DNA from: Paracoccaceae bacterium
GTDB taxonomy: Bacteria; Pseudomonadota; Alphaproteobacteria; Rhodobacterales; Rhodobacteraceae
DNA length: 51,807 bases
Direction: 5' to 3'
Assembly: GCA_020832445.1 (NCBI GenBank)
Contig: JAFIEO010000020.1
Span: 1-51,807, forward strand
The translations under genes were made by a program, and so were the position numbers. Positions within the stretch are counted from its first letter, which is position 1. The number at the start of each line of letters is the position of its first letter. The notes under the pieces were generated by a model. The model saw only the letters and a program-made list of their open reading frames with translations. It had not been told where the DNA came from and did not search any database. Positions 7,564 to 33,730 of this stretch are shown here, in pieces.

Positions 7564-7740
7564 CCCAAGGCGCGGAGCAAAGGGCTTCAGCCCGCCGCGC
7601 CATAGGTCTGGCCGTCCCGCGGCCTGCCGATTTGGCTGATCGCAGTCCAAGCCCATGATGTCGGAGTATGCAGCCTGCATAAAGTGAACTTCACCAACGC
7701 CGGATCGGCAGACCCCGGCCCACCGATGGCGCAGGCTTAC
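7564..7740 (+). repeat. Dispersed structured intergenic repeat, copy 1
   Basis: Copy 1 lies between the converging DUF6456 and ABC-F genes. Modules in order: hairpin A GGCGCGG...CCGCGCC with inner stem GGGC-TTCA-GCCC; segment B GGCCGTCCCGCGGCC then TGCCGAT; palindrome TATGCAGCCTGCATA; segment D ATCGGCAGACCCC then GGCCCACCGAT. D can pair with B across the element, although the GGTCTGG part of B has diverged in this copy. The terminal inverted ends seen in other copies are eroded here. About 106 bp separate the DUF6456 stop from the element core. The function is unknown. Confidence 0.85.
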
Positions 7741-7756
7741 CTTCCACAACGCAGCT

Positions 7757-9607
7757 TCAGGCGTTTTGCGCCCCGTCCAGTGCTTCCTGCGCGGCGACCC
7801 ACATGGTTTCGGCGCGGTCCAGCGCGTCCATCACTTCGGCGTATTTGCGTTGCCACACACCCAGATCCCCTTCGCGGCCCTGTTCATACAGTTCCGTATC
7901 GGCCAGCTTGGTGGCCAGTTTGCTGCGCATGTCTTCCAGCTTTTCGATGCGGGCTTCGGCCTTGCGCAACTCGCTGCGCAGGTTGGAAATATCTTCGCGG
8001 CTGGCGCGTTTGGGCTTGGGGGCGCTGGGTTTTTCGCGCGTGGGCTTGTCGTCATTGGACAGCAAAAACGCACGATAGCTTTCCAGATCGCCCTCATAGG
8101 GGGTGACCTTGCCGCCGGATACCAGCCACAGCCGGTCGGCGACCAGCGACAAAAGATGCATGTCATGGCTGACCAGAACTACCGCGCCGGTGTATTGTGT
8201 CAATGCATCAACCAGCGCTTCGCGCGATTCGATGTCAAGGTGGTTGGTCGGTTCGTCCAAAATCAGCATATGCGGCGCATCCAGCGTGGCCAGCAGCAGC
8301 GACAGGCGCGCTTTTTGTCCCCCCGACAGCCGCGCAACCACGGTTTCTGCCTGATCCGCCATCAACCCGAAACCGGCCAGCCGCGCGCGCAGGCGGGGTT
8401 GCGCTTCAGTTGGGCGCATGCGTTGCAGGTGTTGCAGGGGCGTCTCATCCAGTTCCAGCTCATCCACCTGATGCTGCGCGAAATAGCCCACGCGCAGCTT
8501 GTTGGCGCGCGTCACCTGACCATTGCCACCCAGCTTGTCGGCCAGCAGTTTTGACAAGGTGGATTTGCCTTCACCGTTCCGCCCCAGCAGGGCGATGCGG
8601 TCATCCTGATCAATGCGCAATTCCAGCCCGCGCAGAACGGGTGGGCCACCATACCCGACCGACACCCCGTCCAGCCGCAGAATGGGTGGCGAAAGTTCTT
8701 CGGGCGCGGGAAAGGTAAAGACATGGCGCGCAGCCTCAGAGGGCGCGGTAATCGGCGTCAGTTTTTCCAGCATTTTCAGGCGCGATTGCGCTTGCTTTGC
8801 CTTCGACGCCTTCGCGCGGAACCGGTCCACAAATTTCTGCATATGGTCGCGTTTCAGGGATACTTTCTGCGCCTCGGCGGCCAGAACGGCGCGCTGTTCG
8901 GCGCGGGTGCGCGCGAACGTGTCGTAGCTGCCTGCATAAAGCGTCAGTTTGCGGTCTTCCAGATGCAGGATATGGCTGACGGCACGGTTCAGCAAACCGC
9001 GATCATGGCTGATGATAAGGACCGTGTGCGGGTATTTCGCCAGATAGCTTTCCAGCCACAGCGCGCCTTCAAGGTCCAGATAGTTGGTCGGTTCATCCAG
9101 CAGCAGCAAATCGGGCTGCGCAAACAGCACCCCCGCCAGCGCAACACGCATCCGCCATCCGCCCGAAAAATCCGAACAGGGGCGCGCTTGTGCGGCTGTG
9201 TCGAACCCCAGGCCCTTCAGGATCGAGCTTGCACGCCCTTCGGCAGACCAGGCGTCAATATCGGCCAGGCGGGTTTGCACAGCGGCAATGCGGGCAGGGT
9301 CGGTGGTGGTTTCGGCCTCAGCCATCAGGGCTGCGCGTTCCACATCGGCTTGCAGCACCGTTTCCAGCAGCGACGTGGATGATGACGGCACTTCCTGTGC
9401 CACGCCGCCGATGCGCGCGCGCGCTGGCAGCGTGATCGCCCCCCCTTCCAGCGGCAGATCGCCACGGATCATGCGAAACAGCGTGGTTTTGCCCGATCCG
9501 TTGCGCCCGACCAGCCCGACCTTGTGGCCCGTGGGAATATTGGCCGAAGCCCCCTCGAACAGGGGCCGGCCGTCGATAGAGAATGAGATGTCGTCAATAT
9601 GCAGCAT
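7757..9607 (-). CDS. ABC-F family ATP-binding cassette protein
   Basis: A 616-residue soluble protein with two ABC modules and no membrane segments. Module 1 has Walker A GRNGSGKTT (residues 35-43), signature SDFSGGWRMRVALAG and Walker B LLLLDEPTNYLDLEG. A charged linker follows (RFRAKASKAKQAQSRLKMLE, the P-site tRNA interaction motif). Module 2 has GRNGEGKST, LSGGQKARLSLLLA and MLILDEPTNHLDIES. The C-terminal 90 residues form a coiled coil (LRSELRKAEARIEKLEDMRS). ABC-F proteins act on ribosomes with bound peptidyl-tRNA. Length and coiled coil suggest the YheS/Uup-like housekeeping branch rather than a resistance protein. The start ATG 9607 gives the standard MLHIDDIS beginning. The exact subfamily needs a tree. 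Confidence 0.92.
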   Translation of the reverse strand: MLHIDDISFSIDGRPLFEGASANIPTGHKVGLVGRNGSGKTTLFRMIRGDLPLEGGAITLPARARIGGVAQEVPSSSTSLLETVLQADVERAALMAEAETTTDPARIAAVQTRLADIDAWSAEGRASSILKGLGFDTAAQARPCSDFSGGWRMRVALAGVLFAQPDLLLLDEPTNYLDLEGALWLESYLAKYPHTVLIISHDRGLLNRAVSHILHLEDRKLTLYAGSYDTFARTRAEQRAVLAAEAQKVSLKRDHMQKFVDRFRAKASKAKQAQSRLKMLEKLTPITAPSEAARHVFTFPAPEELSPPILRLDGVSVGYGGPPVLRGLELRIDQDDRIALLGRNGEGKSTLSKLLADKLGGNGQVTRANKLRVGYFAQHQVDELELDETPLQHLQRMRPTEAQPRLRARLAGFGLMADQAETVVARLSGGQKARLSLLLATLDAPHMLILDEPTNHLDIESREALVDALTQYTGAVVLVSHDMHLLSLVADRLWLVSGGKVTPYEGDLESYRAFLLSNDDKPTREKPSAPKPKRASREDISNLRSELRKAEARIEKLEDMRSKLATKLADTELYEQGREGDLGVWQRKYAEVMDALDRAETMWVAAQEALDGAQNA

Positions 9608-9666
9608 GGCCGCGAAGTGCCTGTAAATTGGCGGGGCGTCAAGGTGGCCTTCGCATTGCAGACATG

Positions 9667-9700
9667 AAAACCCCCGGCGCGGGCAGGACCGGCCGGGGGC
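9667..9700 (-). terminator. Rho-independent terminator of the DsbA-like gene
   Basis: On the minus strand, GCCCCCGGCC and GGCGCCGGGGG form a strong GC stem followed by TTTTCATG. It starts about 25 bp after the DsbA-like stop and before the start of the ABC-F gene, so the two genes are separate transcription units. Confidence 0.75.
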
Positions 9701-9724
9701 AATGCCCGAAAGGGGGGCTGCGGG

Positions 9725-10585
9725 TCAGTCGCGCAGGTTTTCAGCAACCAGCGCCAGCGTGTCCGCAGGAACAAAGCCACGCAGGAATTCGGTTTCCATG
9801 ATGAAGCTGGGCGTGCCGCTGATTTGTAGCCGCTGCGCCAGCATGCGGTTTTCTTCCAGAATGGTGGTGATCGCGTCATCATCCAGCATGGCCAGCACGT
9901 CATCCCCGTCAAGGCCCAGATCTTCGGCCAGATCGGTCAGCATTTCGGGGGTGTAGCGCCCTTCATACTGGATCAGCGCGGAATGTGCGTCGCCATATGC
10001 CGCGTCGCCCGCCATTTGCTTGACTGCGATGGCAAAACGCGATGCCAGTTCGGAGTCCGGTCCGAGAATGGGGAATTCCTTGATGATCAGGCGCACATTG
10101 CCATCCTGTTCCAGAAAACTGGTCACTTCCGGATAGGCACGTTTGCAAAACCCGCACTGGTAATCGATGAATTCAACTAGGGTCAGATCGCCATCAGGGT
10201 TGCCGCCAACCCATGAATGCCCGTCATTGAAAATTTCGTCATAATTGGCGTCAATCAGCGCAAGGTCCATATCGGCCTGCGATGCGGTGTTGCGCATTTC
10301 ATATTCGGCGACAGCCTCGAAAATCACTTCGGGGTTTTGCAGCAGATAACTGCGCACTTTCTCGCCAAATTCGGCATCAACGGCAATGGTATCGGGCACT
10401 GGCTGTGCGCCCAGATCGGCCAATGCGGCATCTGCGCTGTCCACCTCGGTGGCAAGTGTTGCCTGATCGTCTGGAGACGGGTCCAATGCTGTGGACCCAC
10501 CGGCGCTGGACAATACCAGAACCCCAAGGGCCGCCGCCGCCATGCAGGTTCCGATCAGGGCGGTGTCGGTCACGGGAAGGGTCAT
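9725..10585 (-). CDS. DsbA family thiol-disulfide oxidoreductase, membrane-anchored
   Basis: A 286-residue protein. Residues 8-30 form a hydrophobic N-terminal segment (signal anchor or cleavable signal), then a low-complexity acidic linker to about residue 65, an alpha-helical region (EKVRSYLLQNPEVIFEAVAE) and a thioredoxin fold. The active site is Cys144-Gly-Phe-Cys147 (EFIDYQCGFCKRAYPE), and the cis-proline loop is ISGTPSFIM. It resembles the DsbA/BdbD-like proteins with a helical prefix (Com1 type) that catalyse periplasmic disulfide formation. ATG 10585 is preceded by AAGGAG at 6 bases. It is divergent from the amidase gene, with 253 bp between them. Its electron partner is not in the window. 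Confidence 0.88.
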   Translation of the reverse strand: MTLPVTDTALIGTCMAAAALGVLVLSSAGGSTALDPSPDDQATLATEVDSADAALADLGAQPVPDTIAVDAEFGEKVRSYLLQNPEVIFEAVAEYEMRNTASQADMDLALIDANYDEIFNDGHSWVGGNPDGDLTLVEFIDYQCGFCKRAYPEVTSFLEQDGNVRLIIKEFPILGPDSELASRFAIAVKQMAGDAAYGDAHSALIQYEGRYTPEMLTDLAEDLGLDGDDVLAMLDDDAITTILEENRMLAQRLQISGTPSFIMETEFLRGFVPADTLALVAENLRD

Positions 10586-10838
10586 GCGCTACTCCTTGCT
10601 AAAATGGCCGGTTCGCAATGTCTGCGCAGGCCGGAAAAACTGAACTTTGATACCTTAAACCCTGTGAAACGGTCAGAATCAACCCAAAGGGTGCGGACAA
10701 ATCGACGCTTTCGCAGAATTGATCACAGGAATGTCCGTTCAGGCGGGCAAAGGCGGTGCAAGGCGGCGAAGGGCATTTGCGAATGCCGGTGTTCGGTGTA
10801 GGATTGGACGAAACAATGACAGCTAGGCAGGCAGGGTC

Positions 10839-12113
10839 GTGAACAGGCGCAAGAACACAATTCCGCAGGGCAGGGCGGTGGCTTTGGGGTGCCTGCTTTT
10901 GCTGGTGGCGTTGCTGGTCGCCGGGCCTGCGGACGCCCAAAACCGTCTGGTTGCCCAAGCCCGCATTCTGCCCGATCAGTCCAGCCTTGACGCGGGCGGT
11001 GATGGCGGCATTGTGCTGGACGTGGCGCTTAGTCAGGCGGTTCCATACCGCGTGCGGACCCTGGGCATGCCGCCGCGGCTGGTGCTGGATCTGGGAACTG
11101 TGGACTGGGCGCAGGCAGGTGATGTGTTTGACCAACCCGTGCGCGGTGTGCGCGACATCCGCAAAGGGGCGCTTGGCAATGGCTGGGCGCGGCTGGTGAT
11201 GGACCTGACAGGTCCGTATCTGCCCGGGCAGGTTGAACAGCGCATTGACCCCGAAACAGGGCAGGCGCGTATTCATGTGACGCTGGCGCAGGTGCCGATG
11301 GACGAGTTTGAGCGCCGCGCCACGGATGAGCAGGTTTTTCTGTCGCGTAATCCGGCGGGCCTGTTGCATCCGCAATCCGCGCGCCAAACCAGTGCGGCGG
11401 ACGGACGCACAAAGCCGGTGGTCATGCTGGACCCCGGACATGGGGGCGTCGATCCGGGCGCAGAACGTGACGGCGTGCGCGAGGCCGATCTGGTGCTGAC
11501 ATTCGCGCGCATCCTGCGCGAAGAACTGCTGCGCCGTGGGCAGGTTGAGGTCGCAATGACGCGCGATGCGGACATCTTCGTGTCGCTTGACGGGCGGATA
11601 CGGGCCGCGCGGGCGGCGGGCGCCGATCTGTTCATCTCGCTGCATGCTGATGCCTTGCCCGAAGGGCTGGCCACCGGCACGGTTGTCTACTTGCTGGGCG
11701 AGGATGAAGGCGACGCCGCTGCCGCGTATCTGGCTGAACGCCATGACCGCGCGGACCTGCTGGCCGGTGTCGACCTGACACGCAACAGTGATGAAATTGC
11801 GCGCGTGCTGATGTCGGTTGCGTGGCAGGACACCGCGCCACGGTCGCGCACATTGGCCGATGCGCTGGTAAGTGAAATCGCAGCGACCGGCTTGCGGCTG
11901 CATCGCCGTCCCGTTCAGGCTGGTGCGTTCAGTGTGTTGCGCGCGCCTGACATGCCGTCGGTTCTGATGGAACTGGGGTTCATGTCCAGCCCGCGCGATC
12001 TGGCAAACCTGCGCGATCCTGAATGGACATCGCGCATGGCTGGTGCGATTGCCGATGCGGTGGAAGCTTGGCTGCTGGATGACAAGGCGCAGGGGCTTTT
12101 GCGCCGGCAATAG
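10839..12113 (+). CDS. N-acetylmuramoyl-L-alanine amidase (AmiC type, AMIN + Amidase_3)
   Basis: A 424-residue periplasmic enzyme that cleaves the amide bond between MurNAc and L-Ala in septal peptidoglycan. It starts at GTG 10839. Residues 1-33 are a signal peptide ending at PADA-QN. Residues 40-150 are an AMIN domain that targets the protein to the division site (VLDLGTVDW, IHVTLAQ). Residues 192-415 are the Zn-dependent Amidase_3 domain with His201 (LDPGHGGVDPG), Glu215 (GVREADL), His269 (SLHADALP) and catalytic Glu378 (VLMELGFMS). All are present, so it should be active. The PBP1A gene follows 130 bp downstream on the same strand, a conserved alphaproteobacterial pair of peptidoglycan enzymes. 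Confidence 0.94.
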   Translation: MNRRKNTIPQGRAVALGCLLLLVALLVAGPADAQNRLVAQARILPDQSSLDAGGDGGIVLDVALSQAVPYRVRTLGMPPRLVLDLGTVDWAQAGDVFDQPVRGVRDIRKGALGNGWARLVMDLTGPYLPGQVEQRIDPETGQARIHVTLAQVPMDEFERRATDEQVFLSRNPAGLLHPQSARQTSAADGRTKPVVMLDPGHGGVDPGAERDGVREADLVLTFARILREELLRRGQVEVAMTRDADIFVSLDGRIRAARAAGADLFISLHADALPEGLATGTVVYLLGEDEGDAAAAYLAERHDRADLLAGVDLTRNSDEIARVLMSVAWQDTAPRSRTLADALVSEIAATGLRLHRRPVQAGAFSVLRAPDMPSVLMELGFMSSPRDLANLRDPEWTSRMAGAIADAVEAWLLDDKAQGLLRRQ

Positions 12114-12243
12114 CATTGCGTGATTTGCCGCGTTTCAATGCCTATGGGCGCGTCGGCGGAAACCCGAAATCGTGAAGCACAGGTTTTTGACCTGCGTGAT
12201 GAATGCGCGTATAAGCGCGCCAACTGTTCCAAGGGGTCCACGC

Positions 12244-14799
12244 GTGCTCAGAACGATTCTATCATTTTTCGGCGGGCTTTTCAGTTTCGCGATCACCGCT
12301 GTGTTTTTTGTTGCGCTTGCCATTGGCGGCGTGTTCTGGATGTATGGGCAGGATTTGCCCAGTCATGAACAACTGGCCAATTACACCCCCCCCACAATCA
12401 GCCGCATCTATTCCGGCGAGGGGCGGTTGATCGATGAATTCGCCATTGAACGGCGGCTTTTCACCCCTGTATCAGATATTCCCGATCTGGTGAAAAATGC
12501 CTTCATCAGCGCCGAGGACAGAAATTTCTATGCCCATGCCGGTTTTGACCCGCGTGCGATTGCGGTCGCGGGCTATGAAGCGGTGGTATCGCGCGGGCAG
12601 AATGTGCGCGGGGCGTCCACGATCACGCAACAGGTGATGAAAAACTTCCTGCTGTCGGGCGACCGCACGGGCGAGCGTAAGATCAAGGAACTGATCCTTG
12701 CATCGCGCGTGGAAGGCGCCCTGAGCAAGGACCAGATTCTTGAACTGTATCTGAATGAAATTTTTCTGGGCCAGAATTCTTATGGCGTGACCGCCGCCGC
12801 GCAGACCTATTTCAACAAGACGCTGGACGAATTGGAACTGCACGAAGCCGCCTTTCTGGCAGCGCTGCCGCAGGCACCGTCGAATTATCATCCGGTGCGC
12901 AACCGCGACCGCGTGACGTCCCGGCGCAACTATGTGCTGGGGGAAATGCTGCGCAATGGCCATATTTCGCGCGAAGAGCATGATATTGCGCGCGATCAGC
13001 CGCTTCTGACTGTGCAATCGGGCGATTTTTCCAGCCCGCGCGACATTATTCCGCCGCGTGATTATTTCACCGATGAAGTGCGCCGCCAGCTTTCGGGCAC
13101 ATTCGGCGAAGAGGAATTCTTCACCGGCGGGCTAAGCATTCGCGCCACTATTGACCCCGATATGCAAACCCATGCCGCTCACGCGCTGCAACGCGCGCTG
13201 GAAAACTACGACCGCAGCCGGGGCCAGTTGCGCCCCAGCGGCGAGCGGCTGGAGGCGGAAGATCTGGTGAATGAGGAAACATGGCGCGCGGCACTGGCCC
13301 GCGTCGAGGTGGCACGCGATATTACCCTTGGCGGGCGCTGGTATCCCGCTGTCGTTCTGGCGGCTACGGCCGATCAGGTGCGACTGGGCATTGAAGCTGT
13401 GCGCAGCGATCAGGACGCGCCGCATGTCGTGGACCGCCCGGACATTAATTGGGCGCGTGGGTCGCTGTCCGATAACCTGTCGGTGGGTGATGTCGTCCAT
13501 GTGCGCCGTGTCAGCAATGAGTCCGGTGAATTCCAGCGCTGGTCCTTGCGGCAGGTGCCCGAAGTGCAGGGCGGCTTGATGGCGATGGATGTCAATACCG
13601 GCCGCGTCATTGCCATGCAGGGCGGCTTTTCCTACGAGGATTCGGTGTTTAACCGCGCCACGCAGGCGCAGCGCCAGCCCGGTTCGGCGTTCAAGCCGTT
13701 TGTCTATGCGGCTGCACTGGACAGCGGGTTCACCCCCGCCACAATCGTGATTGATGCGCCTATTGAAGTTGAAACTGTTCAGGGGATCTGGCGTCCCACC
13801 AATGCCACCAACCGGTTTTACGGCCCGACGCCTGTGCGCACGGGCATCGAGATGTCGCGCAACCTGATGACTGTGCGTCTGGCACAGGAAATCGGCATGG
13901 ATGTTGTGGGCGGCTATTCCGAACGCTTCGGGGTTTATGACCGGTCGCAACAAAATCTGGCGGCGGCGCTGGGCAGTCAGGAAACCACGCTGTTCCGGAT
14001 GGTCGCGGCCTATGCGATGTTTGCCAATGGCGGTGAACGGGTGGAACCCACACTGGTGGACCGTGTGCAGGACAGGTGGGGCAAGACAGTCTACCGCCAT
14101 GACCAGCGCAATTGTGTTGATTGCAACGAGGCCAACCTGCCCGAAGGGCGCGGGCTTTGGATCACATCGCAGCGTCAGCGCGTGATGGATGCGGTCACAG
14201 CCTATCAGTTGACCTCGATGATGGAAGGCGTTGTGCAGCGCGGCACCGCTGCGCGGACTGTCAACCTGCCGGTGCCGACCGCAGGCAAAACCGGCACCAC
14301 CAATGAAGCGCGCGATGTCTGGTTCGTGGGCTACACGTCCAATATCGTTGCGGGCTGCTACATTGGTTATGACCAGCCGCGTCCGCTGGGTCGCGGGGCA
14401 GGGGGCGGCACCATGTGCGGCCCAGTGTTCAACGAATTCATGCAAGAAGCGGTCAAGAAATACGGTGGCAGCCGCTTCCGCGTGCCGTCGGGCGGGTATT
14501 TCATCAATATCGACCGCAATACAGGCGCAAGACTGCCTGAAGGCGCAAGCGGCGCGAATGTGATTGCCGAATTCTTCCGCGAAGGTGTCGAGCCGATCTT
14601 TGGTCTGGCGGCTATTATTGACGGTGGTTTCGCACTGGGCGGGGATTTGCCGATGTTCGAGCCGGGCGAGTCGTATGAAGAATTGCAACGCGAGGATTCC
14701 GGCCGTGGGCAGTTGCCGGACGGCACCACCAGCGACGGGGGCGGCAGCACGGCCCCTTCTGCCAGCTTTGGCACAGTATCGACGGGTGGGTTGTATTAG
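12244..14799 (+). CDS. mrcA: Penicillin-binding protein 1A (class A, bifunctional)
   Basis: An 851-residue inner-membrane enzyme with glycosyltransferase and transpeptidase activity in peptidoglycan synthesis. GTG 12244 (MLRTILSFFGGLFSFAIT) is preferred over upstream starts because AAGGGG lies 7 bases before it and the protein then begins at its membrane anchor. The GT51 domain shows SAEDRNFYAHAGFDPR, RGASTITQQVMKN and LNEIFLGQNSYG. A PCB_OB insert occupies roughly residues 310-420. The transpeptidase has SAFKP (Ser nucleophile), SRN and AGKTGTTN, all intact. The C-terminus has a Gly/Ser-rich tail. It lies downstream of the AmiC-type amidase. The first repeat element on its 3' side begins 38 bp after the stop. 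Confidence 0.95.
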   Translation: MLRTILSFFGGLFSFAITAVFFVALAIGGVFWMYGQDLPSHEQLANYTPPTISRIYSGEGRLIDEFAIERRLFTPVSDIPDLVKNAFISAEDRNFYAHAGFDPRAIAVAGYEAVVSRGQNVRGASTITQQVMKNFLLSGDRTGERKIKELILASRVEGALSKDQILELYLNEIFLGQNSYGVTAAAQTYFNKTLDELELHEAAFLAALPQAPSNYHPVRNRDRVTSRRNYVLGEMLRNGHISREEHDIARDQPLLTVQSGDFSSPRDIIPPRDYFTDEVRRQLSGTFGEEEFFTGGLSIRATIDPDMQTHAAHALQRALENYDRSRGQLRPSGERLEAEDLVNEETWRAALARVEVARDITLGGRWYPAVVLAATADQVRLGIEAVRSDQDAPHVVDRPDINWARGSLSDNLSVGDVVHVRRVSNESGEFQRWSLRQVPEVQGGLMAMDVNTGRVIAMQGGFSYEDSVFNRATQAQRQPGSAFKPFVYAAALDSGFTPATIVIDAPIEVETVQGIWRPTNATNRFYGPTPVRTGIEMSRNLMTVRLAQEIGMDVVGGYSERFGVYDRSQQNLAAALGSQETTLFRMVAAYAMFANGGERVEPTLVDRVQDRWGKTVYRHDQRNCVDCNEANLPEGRGLWITSQRQRVMDAVTAYQLTSMMEGVVQRGTAARTVNLPVPTAGKTGTTNEARDVWFVGYTSNIVAGCYIGYDQPRPLGRGAGGGTMCGPVFNEFMQEAVKKYGGSRFRVPSGGYFINIDRNTGARLPEGASGANVIAEFFREGVEPIFGLAAIIDGGFALGGDLPMFEPGESYEELQREDSGRGQLPDGTTSDGGGSTAPSASFGTVSTGGLY

Positions 14800-14837
14800 G
14801 AGGAAGGTTTGGACGGGCGTTAGCGGGGTTGATCTGT

Positions 14838-15066
14838 GCCCTTTCGCGGACATCGGGAAAGCCCCAAGGCGCGGAGCAAAGGCCGCAAGGCCGCCGCGCC
14901 ATCGGCGGGCCGTCCCGCGGCCTGCCGATTTGGCCAGCGACACGCCAAGCGGTTTAAGTAAGGGATATGCAGCTTGCATAAACTGCGCGTCTCAAATGTC
15001 GGACCGGCAGACCCCGGCCCACCGCTGGCGCGTGCTTACTCCAAGCGTGAATGACTGCAAATGACC
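14838..15066 (+). repeat. Dispersed structured intergenic repeat, copy 2
   Basis: Copy 2 lies between mrcA and prfB. The left end GCCCTTTCGCGGAC matches the GGCCTTTTGCGG end of copy 4. Hairpin A reads GGCGCGG...CCGCGCC with inner stem GGCC-GCAA-GGCC. Relative to GGGC/GCCC in the other copies this is a paired, compensatory change with a GNRA-type loop. Segments B (GGGCCGTCCCGCGGCC, TGCCGAT) and D (CCGGCAGACCCC, GGCCCACCGC) can pair, and TATGCAGCTTGCATA is palindromic. It ends with GAATGACTGCAA, a diverged inverted end. Confidence 0.88.
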
Positions 15067-15214
15067 AATAACTACCATAACCGATGATGTGACCGTGGCT
15101 TCCGGCAATGAACCGGCAGCTTGCAAACAGGATCACAGCTTGGATGGCTTGCCCCTGATGCGTCGCCGCGTTATGCACAGGCCCAGCTTTCAGCTTCAGG
15201 AATGGACGATACCC

Positions 15215-16342
15215 ATGCGCGCAGAGACGCTTAGCACCATTGACGCGATCCGCAAATCACTGGCCTTGCTTGGTCAACGGATGGATATCGAAACGGCACC
15301 GCACCGGCTGGAAGAATTCGATGCGATGACTGAAAACCCCGACCTGTGGAACGATCCCGCCCGCGCGCAGGCCCTGATGCGTGATCGCCGCTTGCTGGCC
15401 GATGCGTTGGGCACCTACCGCAGCATTGCGCAGGAACTCGAAGATCAGATGGGCCTGATCGAGTTGGGAGAGGCCGAAGGCGACACCGAAATCGTGGCCG
15501 AAGCCGAAGAAGAACTGCGTAAACTGGCCAAATCCGCCGCCGCCAAGGAACTGGAGGCGCTGCTGAACGGCGAGGCGGACAGCAACGACACCTTCCTTGA
15601 GATTAACGCAGGCGCGGGCGGCACCGAAAGCTGTGACTGGGCGTCGATGCTGGCGCGCATGTATGTGCGTTGGGCCGAAAAGAAGGGGTATACTGTCGAG
15701 CTGATGTCAGAAAGCGCGGGCGAGGAAGCGGGCATCCGGTCTGTGGCTTACAAGATTTCAGGTCATAATGCCTATGGCTGGCTGAAATCGGAATCCGGCG
15801 TGCACCGTCTGGTGCGGATTTCGCCTTTTGACGGCTCGGCGCGGCGGCACACATCGTTCAGCTCTGTCTGGGTCTATCCTGTGGTTGATGAGAATATTGA
15901 GATTGACATCAACCCGTCTGACATCCGTATCGACACCTACCGGTCATCCGGTGCGGGTGGTCAGCACGTCAACACGACCGACTCGGCCGTGCGGATTACC
16001 CATATACCGACCGGCATTGTCACCACATCCAGCCAGAAATCGCAGCATCAGAACCGCGAAATTGCCATGAATGCGCTGAAATCGCGGCTGTATGAAATGG
16101 AATTGCGAAAACGCACCGAAGCGATTGAAGCCGCGCATGATGCCAAGGGCGATGCGGGCTGGGGCAACCAGATCCGGTCCTATGTGCTGCATCCCTATCA
16201 GATGGTGAAGGATCTGCGCACCGCACATGAAACGTCGGACACCCAAGGCGTTCTGGACGGCGCGCTGGACGGGTTCATGGCGGCCACGCTGGCGATGGAT
16301 GTGTCCGGCAAAACGCGCGCCGAGGCGAACGCCACCGATTGA
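15215..16342 (+). CDS. prfB: Peptide chain release factor 2
   Basis: A 375-residue class I release factor that recognises UAA and UGA and triggers peptidyl-tRNA hydrolysis. SPF tripeptide at 203-205 ([10 protein letters not shown]) is the anticodon-like codon reader. The GGQ motif at 248-250 ([15 protein letters not shown]) contacts the peptidyl transferase centre. The open frame extends upstream to 15089, but ATG 15215 gives the standard [12 protein letters not shown] start. No in-frame UGA or programmed +1 frameshift site is present near codon 25, unlike E. coli. The gene stands alone on the plus strand between a repeat element and a membrane protein gene. Confidence 0.96.
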
Positions 16343-20524: not shown

Positions 20525-22972
20525 ATGCGGATCATCCTTCTGGCGCTGTTCTGCGCCATGGCCATAGCCACACAACCGAACGTGGTGTTCGCCCAGGCGA
20601 CTGAACAATCATCCAGCACAGCGCCTGATTATGATGCGTGGCGCAGCGTTGCCACCCAGGCAGAGCGCGTCATCGACGCAGGCATAGCAACGGATGATAC
20701 CCTGAACGAATTGCGTCAGGAACTGGTAGAGTTCCGGTCGCGTTTTCTGGCCGCGCAGGATGCCAACCAATCGCGCATTGCCAGTTTGCGCGAACAGATT
20801 TCGGCCCTTGGCCCCGTGCCAGAAGATGGCGCGACCGAAGCCCCTGAAATTGCTGATCGCCGCGCCGAATTAAGCGAGCAACTGACCGCGCTGCAATCGC
20901 CCGGAATTGCCGCACAAGAAGCGTTCCGGCGCGCGGACGGGTTGATCCGCCAGATTGATGTGATGTTGCGCGAACGGCAGGCAGAGGCGTTGCTGGAACT
21001 GTGGCCCTCGCCGTTGAACCCCGTAAACTGGGTTTCCGCAGCCGATGCGGTCTGGGGGCGCAGCTTTACCTTCTACACCCAAGTGGTCGGCGCACTGGAC
21101 GACCCCGCAGCGCTGCGTGAATTCAGGTCCAATCTTCCGATTGTGCTGCTGCTTTTCGGGTTTGCAGGTTTTGTGCTTTTGCGGGGGCGGCGCTGGATTG
21201 AACGCGCGGTTGCGCGGCTGCTACAGGAAGGGGGGACGCGCAAAAGCAAACGGGTCTTTGCCGAAGTCGCATCGCTGGCGCAGATTATCGTTCCTGTTAC
21301 GGCTGTGGTTGCGATGGCTGTTGCGCTGGATCTGACCGGTTTGATCGGGGATATTGGCAGTGACATCACCACGGCCCTGATCGGTTTCGGCATTGTTTAT
21401 TTTTCGGCGCGTTGGGCCGGAGGAGAGATTTTTCCGGTTGTTGACACCCCGCAAATGCCGCTGAAACTGCCCGAAGCACGGCGGCGTGAAGGGCGCTTCA
21501 TGTCCCATCTTATGGGGCTGATCTTTGGGGCGTCGCTGGTCATTGTTGCGTTCATAAACCCCGATGTGCAGACCGATGCTGCCAATTCCGTGATCCTGTT
21601 CCCGATCCTTGTTCTGGCGGGGATTGTGCTGGCACGGTTCGGGTCACTGTTGGTGCTGCATGCGAAACTATGCACCGAGCAGGGTGACGATCGGCGCTTT
21701 TTCGACCGGATGATAAACATCCTTGGGCGCGGGGCGATTGTCATAGGCGCAGGTGCCCCCGTTTTCGCCGCAATCGGCTATGTGCAGGCCGCCGAGGCAA
21801 TCTTGTTTCCGGCGGTCATCTCGCTGTGGCTTGTGGCCCTGCTGATCTTCATCTCGCAGATGGTATCTGATGTGTATGACATGGTCGCGGGGCGCAAGCA
21901 CGATGATCCCGATGCCCTGATCCCTGCGCTGATCAGCTTTGCTCTGGTCTTACTCTCGCTGCCGGTCTTTGCGCTGGTCTGGGGCGTGCGGATGACCGAA
22001 TTGCTGGAGGTGTGGCAGGTTCTGCGCGAAGGGTTCCGTATTGGAGAGACGCGGGTTTCCCCGACAAATATCCTGAGTTTCATCGTCATCTTCTCGATCG
22101 GGTATATGCTGACGCGGATGATGCAGGGCGCGCTTGGATCTACGGTGCTGCCAAAAACCAAGATCGACAAGGGCGGCCAGAAGGCCGTGATTTCGGGCAC
22201 CGGTTATATTGGTATCTTCATCTCGGGGCTGGTGGCCATTTCGACGGCAGGGATAGACCTGTCGGGCCTTGCGCTTGTGGCGGGGGCGCTGTCGGTTGGT
22301 ATCGGCTTTGGCCTGCAAAATATCGTGTCGAACTTCATCTCGGGGCTGATCCTGCTGATTGAACGACCTGTGGCCGAAGGGGACTGGATTGAAGTTGGCA
22401 CCACGATGGGCACGGTTAGGTCAATCTCTGTCCGCTCTACAGTCATTGAAACTTTTGACCGGACAGATGTGATTGTCCCGAATGCCGATCTGATTTCGGG
22501 AACTGTCACGAACTGGACGCGGTTCAGCCAGACAGGGCGCGTGATCATTCCAGTGGGCGTGGCCTATGGGTCGGACACCCGCAAGGTGGAACGCATCCTG
22601 AAGGAAATTGGTGACGCCCAGCCGCTTGCGCTGTTGGACCCTGCACCTGCGGTGCATTTTACGAATTTCGGTGCGGATGCGCTGGAATTCGAATTGCGCA
22701 TTATCATCAGCGATGTGGGCTTTGGCTTGTCAGTGCGCACCGAAGTGCGCCACCAGATCGCCGAGCGGTTCCAACAAGAAGGGATCGAGATTCCCTTCGC
22801 GCAGCGTGATATATGGCTGCGCAACCCCGAAGTCCTGCGCGGCGGTGCGCCTGCACCCGCTGCATCAGGCCCGGACCCCGAGCCGGCACAGCCCAAAGCC
22901 ATGCAATATGACGAGATTTCAGATACCGATGCGGGTGGTGACGTGGACCCTGACGGGCCGGACGGGCGCTGA
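20525..22972 (+). CDS. MscS-family mechanosensitive channel with DUF3772 N-terminal domain
   Basis: An 815-residue membrane protein that should act as a pressure-relief channel during osmotic downshock. ATG 20525 gives a signal peptide (residues 1-23, cleaved near VFAQA), then a periplasmic coiled-coil DUF3772 region to about residue 185, about nine or ten membrane helices, and the MscS core. The pore helix and its following loop read ALSVGIGFGLQNIVSNFISG with LILLIERPVAEGDWIEVG, then the beta domain FDRTDVIVPNADLISG and an alpha/beta C-terminus. The tail is acidic and Pro/Ala-rich. It follows cysK by 22 bp. The frame extends upstream into cysK, but the signal peptide supports the chosen start. 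Confidence 0.92.
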   Translation: MRIILLALFCAMAIATQPNVVFAQATEQSSSTAPDYDAWRSVATQAERVIDAGIATDDTLNELRQELVEFRSRFLAAQDANQSRIASLREQISALGPVPEDGATEAPEIADRRAELSEQLTALQSPGIAAQEAFRRADGLIRQIDVMLRERQAEALLELWPSPLNPVNWVSAADAVWGRSFTFYTQVVGALDDPAALREFRSNLPIVLLLFGFAGFVLLRGRRWIERAVARLLQEGGTRKSKRVFAEVASLAQIIVPVTAVVAMAVALDLTGLIGDIGSDITTALIGFGIVYFSARWAGGEIFPVVDTPQMPLKLPEARRREGRFMSHLMGLIFGASLVIVAFINPDVQTDAANSVILFPILVLAGIVLARFGSLLVLHAKLCTEQGDDRRFFDRMINILGRGAIVIGAGAPVFAAIGYVQAAEAILFPAVISLWLVALLIFISQMVSDVYDMVAGRKHDDPDALIPALISFALVLLSLPVFALVWGVRMTELLEVWQVLREGFRIGETRVSPTNILSFIVIFSIGYMLTRMMQGALGSTVLPKTKIDKGGQKAVISGTGYIGIFISGLVAISTAGIDLSGLALVAGALSVGIGFGLQNIVSNFISGLILLIERPVAEGDWIEVGTTMGTVRSISVRSTVIETFDRTDVIVPNADLISGTVTNWTRFSQTGRVIIPVGVAYGSDTRKVERILKEIGDAQPLALLDPAPAVHFTNFGADALEFELRIIISDVGFGLSVRTEVRHQIAERFQQEGIEIPFAQRDIWLRNPEVLRGGAPAPAASGPDPEPAQPKAMQYDEISDTDAGGDVDPDGPDGR

Positions 22973-23009: not shown

Positions 23010-23229
23010 GGCCTTTTGCGGACGTTCATGCTGGGAATAAGCCCGCGCCAGCGGTGGGCCGGGGGCTGCCGATCCGACGCCAGTGAAGTTCACTTTATGC
23101 AAGCTGCATACTCCTGTGCTCAAAGGCTTGGCGTGTCGCTGGCCAAATCGGCAGGCCGCGGGACGGCCCGCCGATGGCGCGGCGGGCTGCGCCCTTGATT
23201 CCGCGCCTTTGGGTGTCAGCTTCAGGCCA
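23010..23229 (-). repeat. Dispersed structured intergenic repeat, copy 3 (inverted)
   Basis: Copy 3 has the opposite orientation to the others and lies between the converging mscS-type gene and atpC. Read on the minus strand it has hairpin A GGCGCGG...CCGCGCC with inner GGGC-GCA-GCCC, segment B, TATGCAGCTTGCATA, segment D, and a right end CGTCCGCAAAAGGCC. That right end is the reverse complement of the left end of copy 4 (GGCCTTTTGCGG), which shows that the element has terminal inverted repeats. Its edge is 37 bp after the channel stop codon. Confidence 0.88.
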
Positions 23230-23330: not shown

Positions 23331-23726
23331 TTATGCCATTGTAGAAATGGTCTGTGCCAGATCATCGGCGGTTTTGTTCAGCGCGTCGCGGTCGTTGCCT
23401 TGGGCAGATGCCGCCTTGGCGCGGGTTTCGTCCAGCAGGGCCTGCAAGGCATCGCGACCTTCGGGCCCCATTGGATAGGCGCGTTCGGCCAGAACAGATG
23501 TTGCTCCGGGGGTGATTTCTGCAAATCCCCCCGTCACGGCAAAACGGGTTTCCCCGTCTGCCCCGTCCACCACCAACACGCCGGGGCGCAGGGTGGTGAT
23601 AAGGGGTGCGTGATCAGGCATGGCCGTCAGGTCACCCGACGCCGCAGGAATCTGCACCGCGCGGGCCTGAACGGATGCAAGCTTCCGTTCGGGCGAGACC
23701 AGGTCGAATTGCATCATGTCAGCCAT
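23331..23726 (-). CDS. atpC: F1F0 ATP synthase subunit epsilon
   Basis: A 131-residue central-stalk subunit. The N-terminal beta-sandwich is clear: MQFDLVSPERKLASVQAR, ASGDLTAMPDHAPLITTLRPG and FAVTGGFAEITPGATSVLAERA. The C-terminal helical arm is RDALQALLDETRAKAASAQ. Epsilon couples rotation to catalysis and restrains ATP hydrolysis. It is the last gene of the minus-strand operon atpHAGDC, 10 bp after atpD, and is followed by a strong terminator. The length is normal. Confidence 0.95.
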   Translation of the reverse strand: MADMMQFDLVSPERKLASVQARAVQIPAASGDLTAMPDHAPLITTLRPGVLVVDGADGETRFAVTGGFAEITPGATSVLAERAYPMGPEGRDALQALLDETRAKAASAQGNDRDALNKTADDLAQTISTMA

Positions 23727-28174: not shown

Positions 28175-28180
28175 GTCCAC

Positions 28181-29243: not shown

Positions 29244-29338
29244 AGTCTGCCCTTCAGCCCCTGATGATGCCTCGGTTGCACATGTCGCCCGATTGGCGCA
29301 GTCTTGACCGGACTGTAACGGATGAAAGCGAAAAGACC

Positions 29339-30106: not shown

Positions 30107-30152
30107 CCCGTGCGAACTGCTTAATCCTTGCGTGTTTTGCATATTGGGGACA

Positions 30153-30204
30153 AAGTTTAAGAGAAAACACTTGAACGGCGGAAAATAAAACCGAAGTTTA
30201 AGAG
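30153..30204 (+). promoter_or_regulatory. Two direct repeats upstream of clpA
   Basis: AAGTTTAAGAG occurs at 30153-30163 and again at 30194-30204, 41 bp apart start to start, roughly four helical turns. They lie 63 and 104 bp before the clpA start. They may be operators, or chance duplication in AT-rich DNA. Confidence 0.35.
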
Positions 30205-30266
30205 TATGAGGCGAGACTGATCCAACGGTATGGGCCAATGGATCAAACTATACAGGAGCGTCTGAC

Positions 30267-32585
30267 GTGCCATCATTTTCAGCCACACTGGAACAATCCA
30301 TCCACGGGGCCTTGGCATTGGCCAATTCCCGGCGGCACGAATTCGCAACGCTGGAGCATTTGCTTTCGTCGCTGATTGACGAACCCGATGCCAGCCGCGT
30401 GATGCAGGCCTGCAATGTCGATCTTGACGAATTGCGCAAGACCCTCAATGACTTCATCGAGGAAGAACTGACCTCCCTCGTGACCGATGTCGAAGGGTCC
30501 GAAGCGGTGCCGACTGCGGCATTCCAGCGCGTAATCCAGCGCGCGGCGATCCATGTGCAAAGCTCTGGCCGCAATGAGGTGACGGGGGCAAATGTGCTGG
30601 TCGCCATTTTCGCCGAACGCGAATCAAACGCGGCCTATTTCCTTCAAGAACAGGATATGACGCGCTATGATGCCGTGAATTTCATCGCGCATGGCGTGGC
30701 CAAGAATTCCAGCTTCTCCGAAGCGCGCCCGGTCAGCGGTGCGGATGAAGAACAAGCCAGCACATCCGGCACTGACGAAAAGCCCAAGGAAACCGCATTG
30801 GGCAAATTCTGTGTCGATCTGAACGCAAAGGCCCGCAAGGGCGAAGTAGACCCGCTGATCGGCCGCGGCCCTGAAGTGGAACGCTGCATTCAGGTTCTGT
30901 GCCGCCGGCGCAAGAATAACCCGCTTTTGGTGGGCGATCCGGGCGTTGGCAAGACAGCTATTGCCGAAGGGCTGGCCAAAAAAATCGTCGAAGGCGAAAC
31001 ACCCGAGATTTTGGCGCATTCCACGATCTATTCGCTGGATATGGGCGCACTTCTGGCGGGCACACGCTATCGCGGTGATTTCGAGGAACGCCTGAAATCC
31101 GTGATGCAGGAACTTGAAGATCACCCCGACGCGGTTCTGTTCATTGATGAGATTCACACTGTCATCGGTGCGGGTGCCACATCGGGCGGGGCGATGGATG
31201 CCTCCAACCTGCTGAAACCTGCATTGCAGGGCGGCAAGCTTCGCTGCATGGGATCGACCACCTACAAGGAATTCCGCCAGCATTTCGAAAAAGACCGCGC
31301 CTTGTCGCGGCGTTTCCAGAAAATTGATGTGGCCGAACCCACGGTTGAGGATTCGATCAAAATCCTGATGGGGCTGAAGCCGTATTTCGAGGAACACCAC
31401 GAAATCCGCTACACGAACGAAGCCATCAAGACCGCAGTGGAACTGGCCGCACGCTATATCAACGACCGCAAATTGCCCGACAAGGCGATTGACGTGATTG
31501 ATGAAGCAGGGGCTGCGCAACATTTGCTGGCGGAATCCAAGCGTCGCAAAACCATCAGCCCTAAGGAAATCGAGGCTGTGGTGGCCAAGATCGCACGCAT
31601 TCCGCCGAAGAATGTGTCCAAGGATGATGCCGAAGTGCTGCGCGATCTGGAACGCACCCTGAAGCGCGTTGTCTTCGGTCAGGGTCCGGCAATCGAGGCA
31701 TTGTCGTCCGCAATCAAGCTGTCGCGCGCTGGCCTGCGTGAACCGGAAAAACCAATCGGGAATTACCTGTTCGCAGGTCCGACCGGTGTTGGTAAAACCG
31801 AAGTGGCCAAACAGCTTGCCGACAGTCTGGGTGTCGAGTTGTTGCGCTTTGACATGTCGGAATACATGGAAAAGCACGCTGTTTCACGCCTGATCGGGGC
31901 GCCCCCCGGCTATGTCGGGTTCGATCAGGGTGGTCTGCTGACTGACGGGGTGGATCAACACCCGCATTGTGTGCTGCTTTTGGATGAAATCGAAAAGGCC
32001 CACCCGGATGTCTATAACATCTTGTTGCAGGTCATGGATCACGGCCAACTGACGGATCATAACGGGCGGACCGTGAACTTCCGCAATGTTATCCTGATCA
32101 TGACATCGAATGCGGGTGCCACCGAACAGGCGAAAGCCGCCATAGGCTTCGGTCGCGACCGGCGCGAAGGCGAAGACACTGCCGCGATTGAACGGACATT
32201 CACGCCTGAATTCCGCAACCGTCTGGATGCGGTCATCAGCTTCGCGCCATTGCCGAAATCGGTTATCGTTCAGGTTGTCGAGAAGTTCGTTCTGCAACTG
32301 GAAGCGCAGCTTATGGACCGCAACGTCACGATCGAACTGTCCGAAGAAGCGGCCGCATGGCTGGCCGACAAAGGCTATGACGACAAGATGGGGGCGCGCC
32401 CGCTGGCGCGTGTCATTCAGGAACACATCAAAAAGCCCTTGGCCGAAGAACTGCTGTTCGGCAAGCTGACAAAGGGCGGCGTTGTGCGCGTGCATGTGCT
32501 GGATGGCAAGATTTCCCTGACGGTCGAAGGGCCGGAAGCCAAGCGTCTGACGGGAAAAAACCCGCCTTTGCTGACGGCTGACTGA
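30267..32585 (+). CDS. clpA: ATP-dependent Clp protease ATP-binding subunit ClpA
   Basis: A 772-residue class 1 Clp/Hsp100 unfoldase that feeds substrates to ClpP. The N-domain repeats span residues 1-145 ([16 protein letters not shown]). AAA-1 has Walker [14 protein letters not shown] near residue 223, AAA-2 has [12 protein letters not shown] near residue 510, and the ClpP-docking type loop lies in the second module. No ClpB-type long middle domain is present, which supports ClpA. GTG 30267 follows AGGAG at 8 bases. The adaptor gene clpS, often immediately upstream of clpA, is not in the window. The upstream 160 bp hold two 11-bp direct repeats (AAGTTTAAGAG) and a CTTGAAC at 30170 that resembles an RpoH -35 without a clear -10. 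Confidence 0.96.
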
Positions 32586-32633
32586 CCATGCCAGCCCTGT
32601 GTCCCATTGGGGAACGGGCTTGATGAATGACAT

Positions 32634-32670
32634 GGCGCCCGGACATACCGTTCGGGCGCCTTCGTTTTTT
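32634..32670 (+). terminator. Rho-independent terminator after clpA
   Basis: GGCGCCCG and CGGGCGCC form an 8-bp GC stem, followed four bases later by TTTTTT. It lies 49 bp beyond the clpA stop and just before the rhomboid gene. Confidence 0.9.
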
Positions 32671-32681
32671 GGACCAGCAGC

Positions 32682-33461
32682 ATGTTAATTCCCATCCGCG
32701 ACCATAACCCTTCTGCCCGCAGGCCCTATGTGACCTATGCGCTGATTGTCGCGAATATTGTCGTGTTCATAGGGTACGCGGGCCTGTTCGCGCAGGAACG
32801 GGCCTTGATGCATTTTTTCCAAAACTGGGGAATGTTGCCCGCACGCCTTGGCATGGGCGACGGGTATGCAACGCTTCTGACGCATCAGTTCCTGCATGGT
32901 GATCTGGTGCATCTTGGGTCCAACCTGTTGTTCTTGTGGATATTCGGCAACAACATGGAAGATGTCTGGGGGCATTTCCGGTTTTTGGGGTTCTACCTGC
33001 TGTGCGGCGTGGCGGCGGCGGGCCTGCAATTTGCCGCGGACCCGACATCGGTTATTCCCATGGTGGGCGCATCGGGCGCGATTGCGGGTGTGTTGGGCGG
33101 GTATCTGTTGTTTTACCCGCGCGCGCGGGTGGATTTGTTTTTGTTCCTGATCATTATTTTCCGCGTCATACCCGCACCGGCATGGGTGGTGCTGGGGGGC
33201 TGGTTTGCGCTGCAAATTCTGGGCGGGGTTTCCGCACCGGCGGGTGTGGGCGGTGTGGCCTATTGGGCGCATGCGGGCGGGTTCATGGCCGGTGTGGCGC
33301 TTTCATTTCCGCTATGGCAGCGGCTGGGCGGACGGGCGTTCTGGTCACGTTGCCTTGGCCAGCCACCACATCCGGAAGCGCGCTATCGTTTCGTGGCATC
33401 CAATGTTCCGAAAGCGGGCAAACCGGCACGGTTCCGGCCCAACCCCTGGCGCAGAAGGTAG
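32682..33461 (+). CDS. Rhomboid family intramembrane serine protease
   Basis: A 259-residue protein with six hydrophobic segments. The catalytic Ser131 is in GASGAIAG and the catalytic His197 is in VAYWAHAGGF. HLGSNLLFLWIFGNNMEDVW gives the conserved loop 1 and helix 2 (HxxxN). Rhomboids cut transmembrane segments within the bilayer, but the substrate is not predictable here. The C-terminus is basic (RFRPNPWRRR), on the cytoplasmic side. ATG 32682 follows the clpA terminator by 12 bp, so transcription from clpA is unlikely. The next element, repeat copy 4, begins 43 bp after the stop. Confidence 0.92.
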   Translation: MLIPIRDHNPSARRPYVTYALIVANIVVFIGYAGLFAQERALMHFFQNWGMLPARLGMGDGYATLLTHQFLHGDLVHLGSNLLFLWIFGNNMEDVWGHFRFLGFYLLCGVAAAGLQFAADPTSVIPMVGASGAIAGVLGGYLLFYPRARVDLFLFLIIIFRVIPAPAWVVLGGWFALQILGGVSAPAGVGGVAYWAHAGGFMAGVALSFPLWQRLGGRAFWSRCLGQPPHPEARYRFVASNVPKAGKPARFRPNPWRRR

Positions 33462-33504
33462 CGGGCGTCAGCATGGGCTGCGGTGGGGCAGGTGGGCGGG
33501 AACT

Positions 33505-33730
33505 GGCCTTTTGCGGTCAGTGGGAATGCCCAAGGCGCGGAGCAAAGGGCGAAGCCCGCCGCGCCATCGGTGGGCCGTCCCGCGGCCTGCCGATAACCTT
33601 ATGGCAGGCCAAGCCTTTGAAGTAAGGATTGTGCAGCTTGCATAAACTGCATTCTTATAATGTCGGATCGGCAGACCCCGGCCCACCGATGACGCGGGCT
33701 TGGTTCCAATGCGAAGGGCAGCTTCAGGCC
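33505..33730 (+). repeat. Dispersed structured intergenic repeat, copy 4 (best-preserved closing stem)
   Basis: Copy 4 lies between the converging rhomboid and trpA genes. The left end is GGCCTTTTGCGGTC. Hairpin A is GGCGCGG...CCGCGCC with inner GGGC-GAA-GCCC. Segment B ATCGGTGGGCCG pairs perfectly (12 bp) with segment D CGGCCCACCGAT, and CTGCCGAT pairs with ATCGGCAG (8 bp). Between them are CCTTA/TAAGG arms and TGCAGCTTGCA. This copy shows the fullest long-range stem of the four. It ends near GCAGCTTCAGGCC at 33718-33730. Confidence 0.88.

Follow-up and report, generated by a model that had tools for sequence, protein, structure and literature searches.

Four copies of one structured sequence within a single stretch of bacterial DNA, all of them intergenic, raise two questions: is this a known kind of repeat or RNA, and is it kept by selection on the host or by its own copying? 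The stretch (hereafter the window) comprises the 51,807 nucleotides of contig JAFIEO010000020.1 from a Paracoccaceae bacterium (assembly GCA_020832445.1). The initial annotation, made from the letters of the window, suspected a large genomic family, for which about ten further copies would be the minimum. This threshold was far surpassed: in the window's own 4.08 Mb Roseinatronobacter genome (G000), a search with a 21-base core motif, tolerating no more than 3 mismatches, yields at least 114 matches, as against none in the reversed control of the same genome, so that we are dealing with a repeat family and not with chance, and the family extends beyond this genome and genus. Specifically, 248 Rhodobacteraceae genomes from 247 genera were searched with a covariance model: 105 of them, in 104 genera, carry the repeat, the copy number of a carrier ranging from one to more than 100, and the other 143 have no match at E<=1e-5; in a class-wide sample of 289 genomes, the window's own genome is the sole carrier. 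No Rfam 15 family lies, at the gathering threshold, over the element in the window or in 7 loci of relatives, and a permissive scan of the window places nothing over it either, which speaks against a known Rfam RNA and fits a repeat that is apparently unnamed. Carriage by phages or viruses was not found in the collections searched, and a search of open-licence papers by title and abstract, in itself weak evidence, returned none on this repeat family or on the kind of replacement described below. The repeat is, apparently, a large, undescribed family of folding elements across the Rhodobacteraceae.

Anatomy and two alternative folds

At full length, a copy measures about 230 bp, has inverted ends and folds back on itself in either of two ways that exclude each other; some copies are extended by outer modules. 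The module order that the initial annotation had read from the window is present in all four copies and can be followed best in copy 2 (14838-15066, plus strand; 230 bits), which is nearly full length. Here, hairpin A occupies 14868-14900 (stem 14868-14874 with 14894-14900), segment B 14901-14929, the central palindrome TATGCAGCTTGCATA 14966-14980, and segment D with its tail 15003-15032, all on the plus strand. The proposed complementarity of D to B is real: in the alternative fold, 15003-15010 (D5) pairs with B3, 15015-15026 (D3) with B5, and the tail (15027-15032) with the 3' strand of hairpin A. Three features had escaped the initial annotation. First, the copy is bounded by outer terminal inverted repeats (TIRs) with an 18 bp consensus, TGGCCTTTTGCGGTCATT / AATGACCGCAAAAGGCCA, which in copy 2 lie at 14838-14854 and 15050-15066 and have diverged from the consensus; both TIR tips are recognisable, with at most one mismatch, in 82 of 204 copies from two genomes. 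Second, segment B is itself a hairpin (14901-14912 with 14918-14929 in copy 2, position 14918 being set by pattern). Third, the GGCGCGG right after D has the same sequence as the 5' strand of hairpin A, with which it can therefore compete.

Both folds carry compensatory changes, clearly in excess of controls, so that the structured nature of the family, which low covariation would have called into question, stands. In an alignment fitted to the long B:D fold, such changes occur at 14 of 25 pairs (86 cells vs 23.4 after shuffling), and the local fold shows them at 9 of 22 pairs (44 cells vs 10.3); a MAFFT alignment made with no structure fitting yields 11 of 26 pairs for the long and 7 of 23 for the local fold. 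The covariation spans more than 30 genera in both folds, and letters in the unpaired loops are conserved in the cross-genus alignment. The mean pairwise identity of cores within the family is 82%. Departures from pairing in the long stem, read on the plus strand, are 5 G-U vs 33 A-C, equivalent to wobble pairs on the minus strand; the local fold has 23 G-U vs 12 A-C (p 0.09), and hairpin A, in three genomes, has no wobble preference (25 G-U, 40 A-C). The first core alignment excluded 20 of 132 copies with unrecognised anchors; the copies studied thereafter were 103 of at least 114 in G000, 101 of at least 109 in the close genome of Roseinatronobacter sp. S2, and 53 of at least 90 in the deeper relative HJB301.

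Gene context and orientation

Separate gene calling by codon usage agrees with the initial annotation in placing three of the four window copies between converging genes: copy 1 (7547-7747, plus strand; profile match of 182 bits, left TIR degenerate) between genes at 6631-7428 (+) and 7757-9607 (-), copy 3 (23010-23222, minus strand; 214 bits) between 20525-22972 (+) and 23331-23726 (-), and copy 4 (33504-33730, plus strand; also a profile match) between 32682-33461 (+) and 33752-34618 (-). Copy 2 has co-directional neighbours at 12301-14799 and 15089-16342. Beside copy 3, an intrinsic-terminator-like hairpin, omitted by the terminator scan, was noticed by eye at the end of the minus-strand gene, outside the element.

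This placement is general: 72 of the 95 G000 copies that could be placed (8 of the 103 lie at contig edges) are found between converging genes, an arrangement shown by 7 of the 38 pairs of neighbouring genes in the window, and so are 10 of 15 distinct annotated loci on plasmids. Together with the covariation across genera, the conserved unpaired letters and the minus-strand wobble of the long stem, such a context speaks for a structured RNA or 3'-end element that serves the host at each site, in the processing, stability or termination of converging transcripts, and is retained by host selection. However, orientation relative to tandem genes is random (10/11 in G000, 7/6 in other genera) and flips at fixed sites, as described below. 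The terminator scan found no hairpin with a T tract at any of the four window copies, and flanking 3' ends possess their own terminators about as often as control ends do (87 of 260 vs 26 of 66, p 0.39), which speaks against an intrinsic terminator. The behaviour of hairpin A and of the local fold with respect to wobble, the 143 of 248 family genomes with no match, and the drift of stems in place nearly as fast as flanks (see below) also count against a host function. Hence, of the options offered by the initial annotation, a termination element and an RNA acting for the host at each site fit less well, and we regard host selection site by site as unlikely. A repeat associated with CcrM sites has been discarded as well: GANTC is not enriched (0.47 vs 0.43 per 330 bp).

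Persistent sites, replaced content

The comparison of G000 with S2, where the flanks of the sites are about 96% identical, separates the fate of a site from the fate of its content. An element is present in both genomes at 71 of 72 comparable sites, one of the 71 being rearranged, a figure that is conditional on S2 loci having been fetched around S2 elements. Using an identity cut-off of 0.91, chosen after the values were seen, 25 of the 71 sites hold orthologous elements (>=0.91), none inverted, and 46 fall below, with 22 inverted and 24 non-inverted (Fisher p 8e-6 for orientation vs identity class). The orientation calls are clear, at about 130-240 bits forward vs at most 36 in reverse. The inverted copies match their counterparts with a median identity of 0.848, and the whole set of S2 copies with one of 0.839; only 1 of 22 is the best match of its counterpart; thus, they were replaced, not turned in place, and simple in-place inversion is ruled out. 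Among the 24 non-inverted copies of low identity, about 9 still rank in the ten best matches of their counterparts, two of them first, so that these may have been replaced in part or may simply be changing fast. Both outcomes are seen in the window: copies 1 and 2 have orthologous S2 copies in unchanged orientation (identity 0.965 and 0.991), and the S2 site of copy 3 holds an inverted replacement (0.817). Copy 4 sits at a rearrangement junction, its left flank matching S2 at about 2.543 Mb and its right flank at about 2.833 Mb, with both S2 matches adjoining elements.

The extent of replacement was judged from averaged flank identity, the X-drop boundary estimate being uninformative at most replaced sites, where the arms are alike. 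Outside the TIR tip, identity stays at 0.87-0.93 and drops only within the TIR on three of the four sides; the exception is the right side of the non-inverted class, with 0.80-0.85 already from about 50 bp outside the tip. Recent donors of whole cassettes were mostly not found in the same genome, as judged by nearest neighbours (identity above 0.95 for 11 of 103 copies in G000 and 5 of 101 in S2) and by the longest shared exact runs, whose length is much the same for copies of one genome and for copies of different genomes (63 vs 62). The scarcity of near-identical partners in G000 and the equally random orientation between HJB301 and S2 speak against an artefact of the draft G000 assembly. 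The origin of S2 from Nanopore and Illumina data, as given in PMC10508151, also counts against it.

In HJB301, 21 of 53 elements lie between the same two orthologous genes; orientation at shared sites is 10 same/9 inverted relative to G000 and 8/10 relative to S2, and identity there is 0.80, vs 0.81 for random pairs. Within G000 and S2, linkage between variants has essentially vanished at distances above about 11 bp. When 95 copies were scored at twelve variable blocks, all four combinations occurred for 64 of the 66 pairs of blocks, with r2 <=0.13 beyond neighbouring blocks. One column pair of HJB301, 61 bp apart, stays linked after correction. The family is thus near linkage equilibrium in two genomes.

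Copies that stay in place drift almost neutrally. In 24 conserved G000/S2 pairs, divergence is 3.1% in stems, 4.2% in loops and 3.8% in flanks, as compared to 7.6% in stems and 26% in loops of replaced pairs; given a p of 0.058 for the contrast of stem and loop in place, weak selection on stems at the site may nevertheless operate.

Selfish element or relic

Bacterial MITEs, such as Correia elements, ERIC/RU and Nezha, are short, non-coding, intergenic, multicopy sequences with inverted ends. The repeat is alike in all these respects, including its 18 bp TIRs, and, of the options of the initial annotation, a MITE fits best by virtue of the inverted ends, the spread over many genera and the lack of any orientation rule; neither target-site duplications (TSDs) nor a transposase were found. 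Direct repeats of 2 bp at the TIR tips occur in 2 of the 82 testable copies (of 204) vs 4.9 by shuffling, with none of 4 bp or more, although, given the outer modules, the element may originally have ended elsewhere. When the 33 remaining G000 copies were compared with S2 stretches, none of the informative sites proved cleanly empty: 4 faced full elements, 8 short forms and 3 were uninformative, 17 had an element or short form adjoining at least one matched flank or were rearranged, and one had no element near either flank, with the flanks at different S2 places. Seven extra matches to an 18-base TIR pattern in three genomes proved to be weak fragments, short forms or the element itself, and the transposase search, which covered PF01797, gave no match in G000, listed as 99.99% complete and the one of the three genomes in that sample. 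Unlike MITEs, the repeat has its content replaced at fixed sites in random orientation and adopts alternative folds, in which pairs have changed in a compensatory manner between genera.

A dead MITE family of the ordinary kind, whose copies are kept alike by ectopic gene conversion and crossovers of the RecA type and whose fold is a relic of transposition, would account for the TIRs, for short forms that read as internal deletions, for rearrangement breakpoints at elements (copy 4, and an inversion of 3 kb bounded by two elements), and for species-specific letters, which distinguish HJB301 from G000 at 11 columns (>0.45); G000 and S2 differ at none (>0.3). However, stem columns have not decayed at 82% mean identity, replacement reaches the TIRs and is inverted at 22 of 46 sites, where only TIRs and arms are alike, and neither a clean insertion nor a TSD nor a parent element came to light. 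We consider a relic rather improbable.

Other known systems are more distant. REPINs and REP-BIME with RAYT are extragenic, hairpin-forming populations, thought to be selfish units and proposed to be copied as such, according to PMC3116915. The repeat is likewise dispersed, extragenic, hairpin-forming, selfish-looking and has inverted ends, but it is longer, of other anatomy and free of a 16-base invariant run at its ends, with cores at 82% mean identity; with no Y1 match in G000, a REPIN-like element moved by a Y1 (RAYT) transposase seems highly improbable. The palindromic intergenic mosaics of other alphaproteobacteria, RIME of Rhizobium and CIR/BRUS of Caulobacter and Brucella, resemble the repeat in being palindromic and intergenic but differ, by description rather than by sequence, in that the repeat is not enriched in GANTC and its class-sample matches are confined to Rhodobacteraceae. 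Neisserial NIME/dRS3 are, as here, dispersed inverted-repeat units recombining into mosaics; NIMEs form arrays near surface-protein genes, whereas the repeat mostly stands as single copies between converging genes.

Taken together, these data point to a MITE-like, apparently selfish element that probably persists because copies replace one another regardless of orientation, and not because the host is selected to keep each of them. Old copies keep their intergenic positions, for the most part between converging genes, where an insertion would do least harm. New content would arrive not by fresh insertion but by substitution of sequence from other family members for the copy already there, over about the length from one TIR to the other, and would land in either orientation because the two TIRs are alike. 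Copying would require a single strand folded either into hairpins A and B or into the long B:D stem, so that structure would be conserved family-wide while a single copy drifts almost neutrally. As the agent of replacement, host recombination or template switching with the TIRs as anchors is somewhat likelier, a dedicated trans-acting recombinase or transposase a serious contender. More tentatively, one may envisage a selfish, fold-dependent DNA or RNA element overwriting its relatives by TIR-to-TIR, orientation-blind cassette exchange between fixed sites, carried out by a dedicated trans-acting recombination system of Rhodobacteraceae and yielding a panmictic population of about 100 loci per genome; its two folds might then distinguish donors from recipients.

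In practical terms, the repeats terminate draft contigs and contain the breakpoints of rearrangements between close genomes. A structured repeat with no Rfam match occupies 104 of 247 sampled genera of a major family of marine and soda-lake bacteria, and the comparison of two genomes reveals an unusual evolutionary mode in which occupied sites persist while their content is swapped in either orientation. Selection acting on the element can in this way be told apart from selection acting on the host, and who copies such repeats, and how, becomes a testable question.

Structure, copy number and genomic placement

The initial annotation described four copies with a common order of modules, which the window sequence confirms: they lie at 7547-7747 (+), 14838-15066 (+), 23010-23222 (-) and 33504-33730 (+). 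A copy is a fold-back repeat of about 230 bp. In the aligned copies, the element is bounded by terminal inverted repeats (TIRs; consensus left TGGCCTTTTGCGGTCATT, right its complement), which enclose two hairpins (A, then B), a central part that varies and includes a short palindrome, segment D, and lastly a tail in which the 5' strand of A recurs. In many copies, further related modules are added outside, at either end. Two mutually exclusive folds can be formed. In the local fold, A and B are each self-paired. The long fold consists of 18 pairs joining D and the tail to the 3' strand of A and the 5' strand of B, and of 7-8 pairs joining the 5' part of D to the 3' strand of B. No Rfam family matched over the element in the scanned window and relatives' loci.

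The window constitutes contig C71 of G000, a genome of 4,079,334 bases whose genus is probably Roseinatronobacter as defined by GTDB. When three mismatches are allowed, a 21-base core pattern matches at 114 places in G000 and at none in the reversed control. The same-genus genome S2 has 109, with 98 of the 100 listed on the 3.48 Mb chromosome and two on a 613 kb replicon; another, HJB301, has 90 at up to two mismatches, and the remaining 21 same-genus genomes in the sample have 0 to 8 each at that threshold. The published N50 of S2, 3,479,920, equals the length of its contig 1 (PMC10508151); contig 3 is NZ_CP121115.1. About 380 kb of the S2 chromosome (~878-1256 kb) is without a core match among the 100 of 109 listed, and the stretch contains a form reduced to hairpins A and B. 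Tandem pairs of elements, ~230-330 bp apart, occur in HJB301 (G017 C98:11075-11332, L285, and C54:281821-282168, L286) and in another genome (G140 C3:92689-93090); one of these pairs has an insertion within hairpin A. The draft G000 contigs C4, C6, C15, C25, C67, C68, C89, C92 and C96 terminate at or inside copies, which suggests that the repeats interrupt the assembly.

According to our own simple gene-calling script, trained on the codon usage of the window, 72 of the 103 G000 copies studied lie between converging genes, 21 between co-directional and 2 between diverging ones, with 8 at contig edges; the gene pairs of the window are 7 converging, 25 co-directional and 6 diverging. The 28 placeable loci from 28 other genomes, each of a different genus and one of them the window's own, gave 14 converging, 13 co-directional (divided 7 and 6) and 1 diverging, and 10 of 15 distinct loci on annotated plasmids were between converging genes. 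The orientation of the element relative to transcription is random: the 21 co-directional G000 copies comprise 10 along the gene direction and 11 opposed to it. T-tract terminators, counted by a rule of our own script, were found at 87 of 260 flanking 3' ends versus 26 of 66 control ends (p 0.39), and a terminator scan found no terminator-like sites at the four window copies.

In two other genera (L368, L375), a copy lies near the ribosomal leader L2-Alphaproteobacteria (RF03142), which may be a shared site of great age. The flanks of several elements (L015, L038, L108, L060, L117 and others) contain another dispersed palindromic repeat, TTAGAGCATGT..GAATGCGAATGAACG..ATATGCTCTAA. In the window, two to three tandem sub-threshold matches to the CcsR1/ar14 small RNA lie at 42447-42755 (-) (at most 55.6 bits; gathering score 65.3), and a 48 bp inverted repeat (1032-1079/1765-1812; 94% complementary, 685 bp apart, no called gene there) may represent the ends of a small mobile element.

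Covariation across the family

Searching plasmids with blastn revealed homologues in Salipiger and Pseudosulfitobacter; one of these, used as query in turn, led to others in Sulfitobacter and Pacificitalea. In these sequences helix letters are changed and the pairing is kept. A covariance model (CM), with up to 11 candidates scored per genome, matched 105 of the 248 genomes sampled from the family, which represent 104 of 247 genera. Of 289 genomes sampled across the class, G000 alone matched; three others listed in that sample belong to the same family.

In a MAFFT alignment of 23 sequences, made with no fitting to any structure, the long fold shows changes on both sides in 11 of 26 pairs (45 cells versus a shuffled mean of 14.9 and at most 7 when slid) and the local fold in 7 of 23 (31 versus 9.7, slid at most 2). 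Kinship among the sequences inflates such counts, and the slid controls therefore matter most. The 39 CM-aligned matches gave 14 of 25 pairs for the long fold (86 cells versus 23.4 shuffled, slid at most 14), a count biased towards its own model, and 9 of 22 for the local fold (44 versus 10.3, slid at most 12). Non-Watson-Crick pairs of the long fold on the plus strand are A-C in 33 cases versus G-U in 5 (p 4e-6, assuming independence of cells that are not independent), so that, if wobble pairs matter, it is the minus strand that forms this fold; for the local fold, G-U is found 23 times and A-C 12 times (p 0.09).

Sites and their content in related genomes

For 72 of the 103 G000 copies, both 1.2 kb flanks match one fetched S2 locus at ~96% identity, and in 71 an element is present between the matched flanks, a proportion conditional on the S2 loci having been fetched around S2 elements; one of the 71 (C2:140862) proved rearranged on closer look. 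At an identity cut-off of 0.91, chosen post hoc with the values already known, 25 pairs are conserved (0.92-0.995), all in the same orientation, and 46 fall below; of these, 24 keep the orientation and 22 are inverted. Simple inversion in place was rejected as the origin of the latter: their median identity is 0.848 to their counterpart versus 0.839 to all S2 copies, the similarity of random paralogues, and they are the counterpart's best match in just 1 of 22. The 24 same-orientation copies form a mixed set: ~15 resemble random paralogues and ~9, ranking within the counterpart's ten best matches, may have been replaced only in part. As far as the TIR tip, flank identity averages 0.87-0.93; inside the tip it falls. 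The exception is the same-orientation class, where on the right the drop begins ~50 bp outside the tip.

Among the other 33 G000 copies compared with S2, including C2:140862, no clean empty sites were seen. Four have a full element between both S2 flanks and eight a short form; all eight, when read, look like internal deletions, and in at least three the junction falls between direct repeats that are short (leaving, for example, hairpins A and B alone). One is a bare TIR hairpin. In 17, an element or short form adjoins at least one matched flank or the site is rearranged; in one, no element or short form is near either flank and the flanks lie at separate S2 places; three are uninformative. 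Rearrangement breakpoints coincide with elements: the flanks joined by window copy 4 (33504-33730) are apart in S2, near 2.543 Mb and 2.833 Mb, both next to elements, and two elements border a 3 kb segment that is inverted between the genomes.

HJB301 is more distant: its relative of the protein flanking copy 3 is 84% identical. Among the 53 HJB301 elements studied, the genes on both sides are orthologous to those around a G000 or S2 element in 21 cases, one gene is in 9 and neither is in 23. At the common sites, orientation is the same in 10 and inverted in 9 compared with G000 (8 and 10 with S2), and identity, 0.80, is at the random level (0.81).

Recombination, constraint and the nature of the element

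The copies behave as a recombining population. In 95 G000 copies, 66 pairs of variable blocks were compared: all four combinations occur in 64, and r2 stays at or below 0.13 unless the blocks are neighbours. After Bonferroni correction, no column pair more than 11 bp apart is linked in G000 or S2, and one, 61 bp apart, stays linked in HJB301. No column differs by more than 0.3 in allele frequency between G000 and S2; 11 differ by more than 0.45 between HJB301 and G000. Against this reading, near-identical partners (>0.95) in the same genome exist for just 11 of 103 and 5 of 101 copies, and the exact runs that copies share within a genome do not exceed in length those shared between genomes. 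Intact donors are therefore seldom seen, perhaps owing to short-tract mosaicism or to donors external to the genome.

In looks and in its spread over genera, the element resembles a MITE. We do not file it as such, because neither clean empty sites nor target-site duplications were seen (the latter at the TIR tips of the 82 copies, out of 204, that allowed the test) and no transposase turned up, with G000 searched for PF01797.

In 24 conserved orthologous pairs, 3.1% of positions differ in stems, 4.2% in loops (stem versus loop p 0.058) and 3.8% in nearby flanks, whereas in replaced pairs the figures are 7.6% for stems and 26% for loops. Thus, the fold seems to be kept when copies propagate, whereas constraint on copies already in place seems weak or absent. 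Mainly for this reason, we prefer a selfish element to a host RNA. In our reading, it works like a repeat population, with members overwriting each other at fixed sites.
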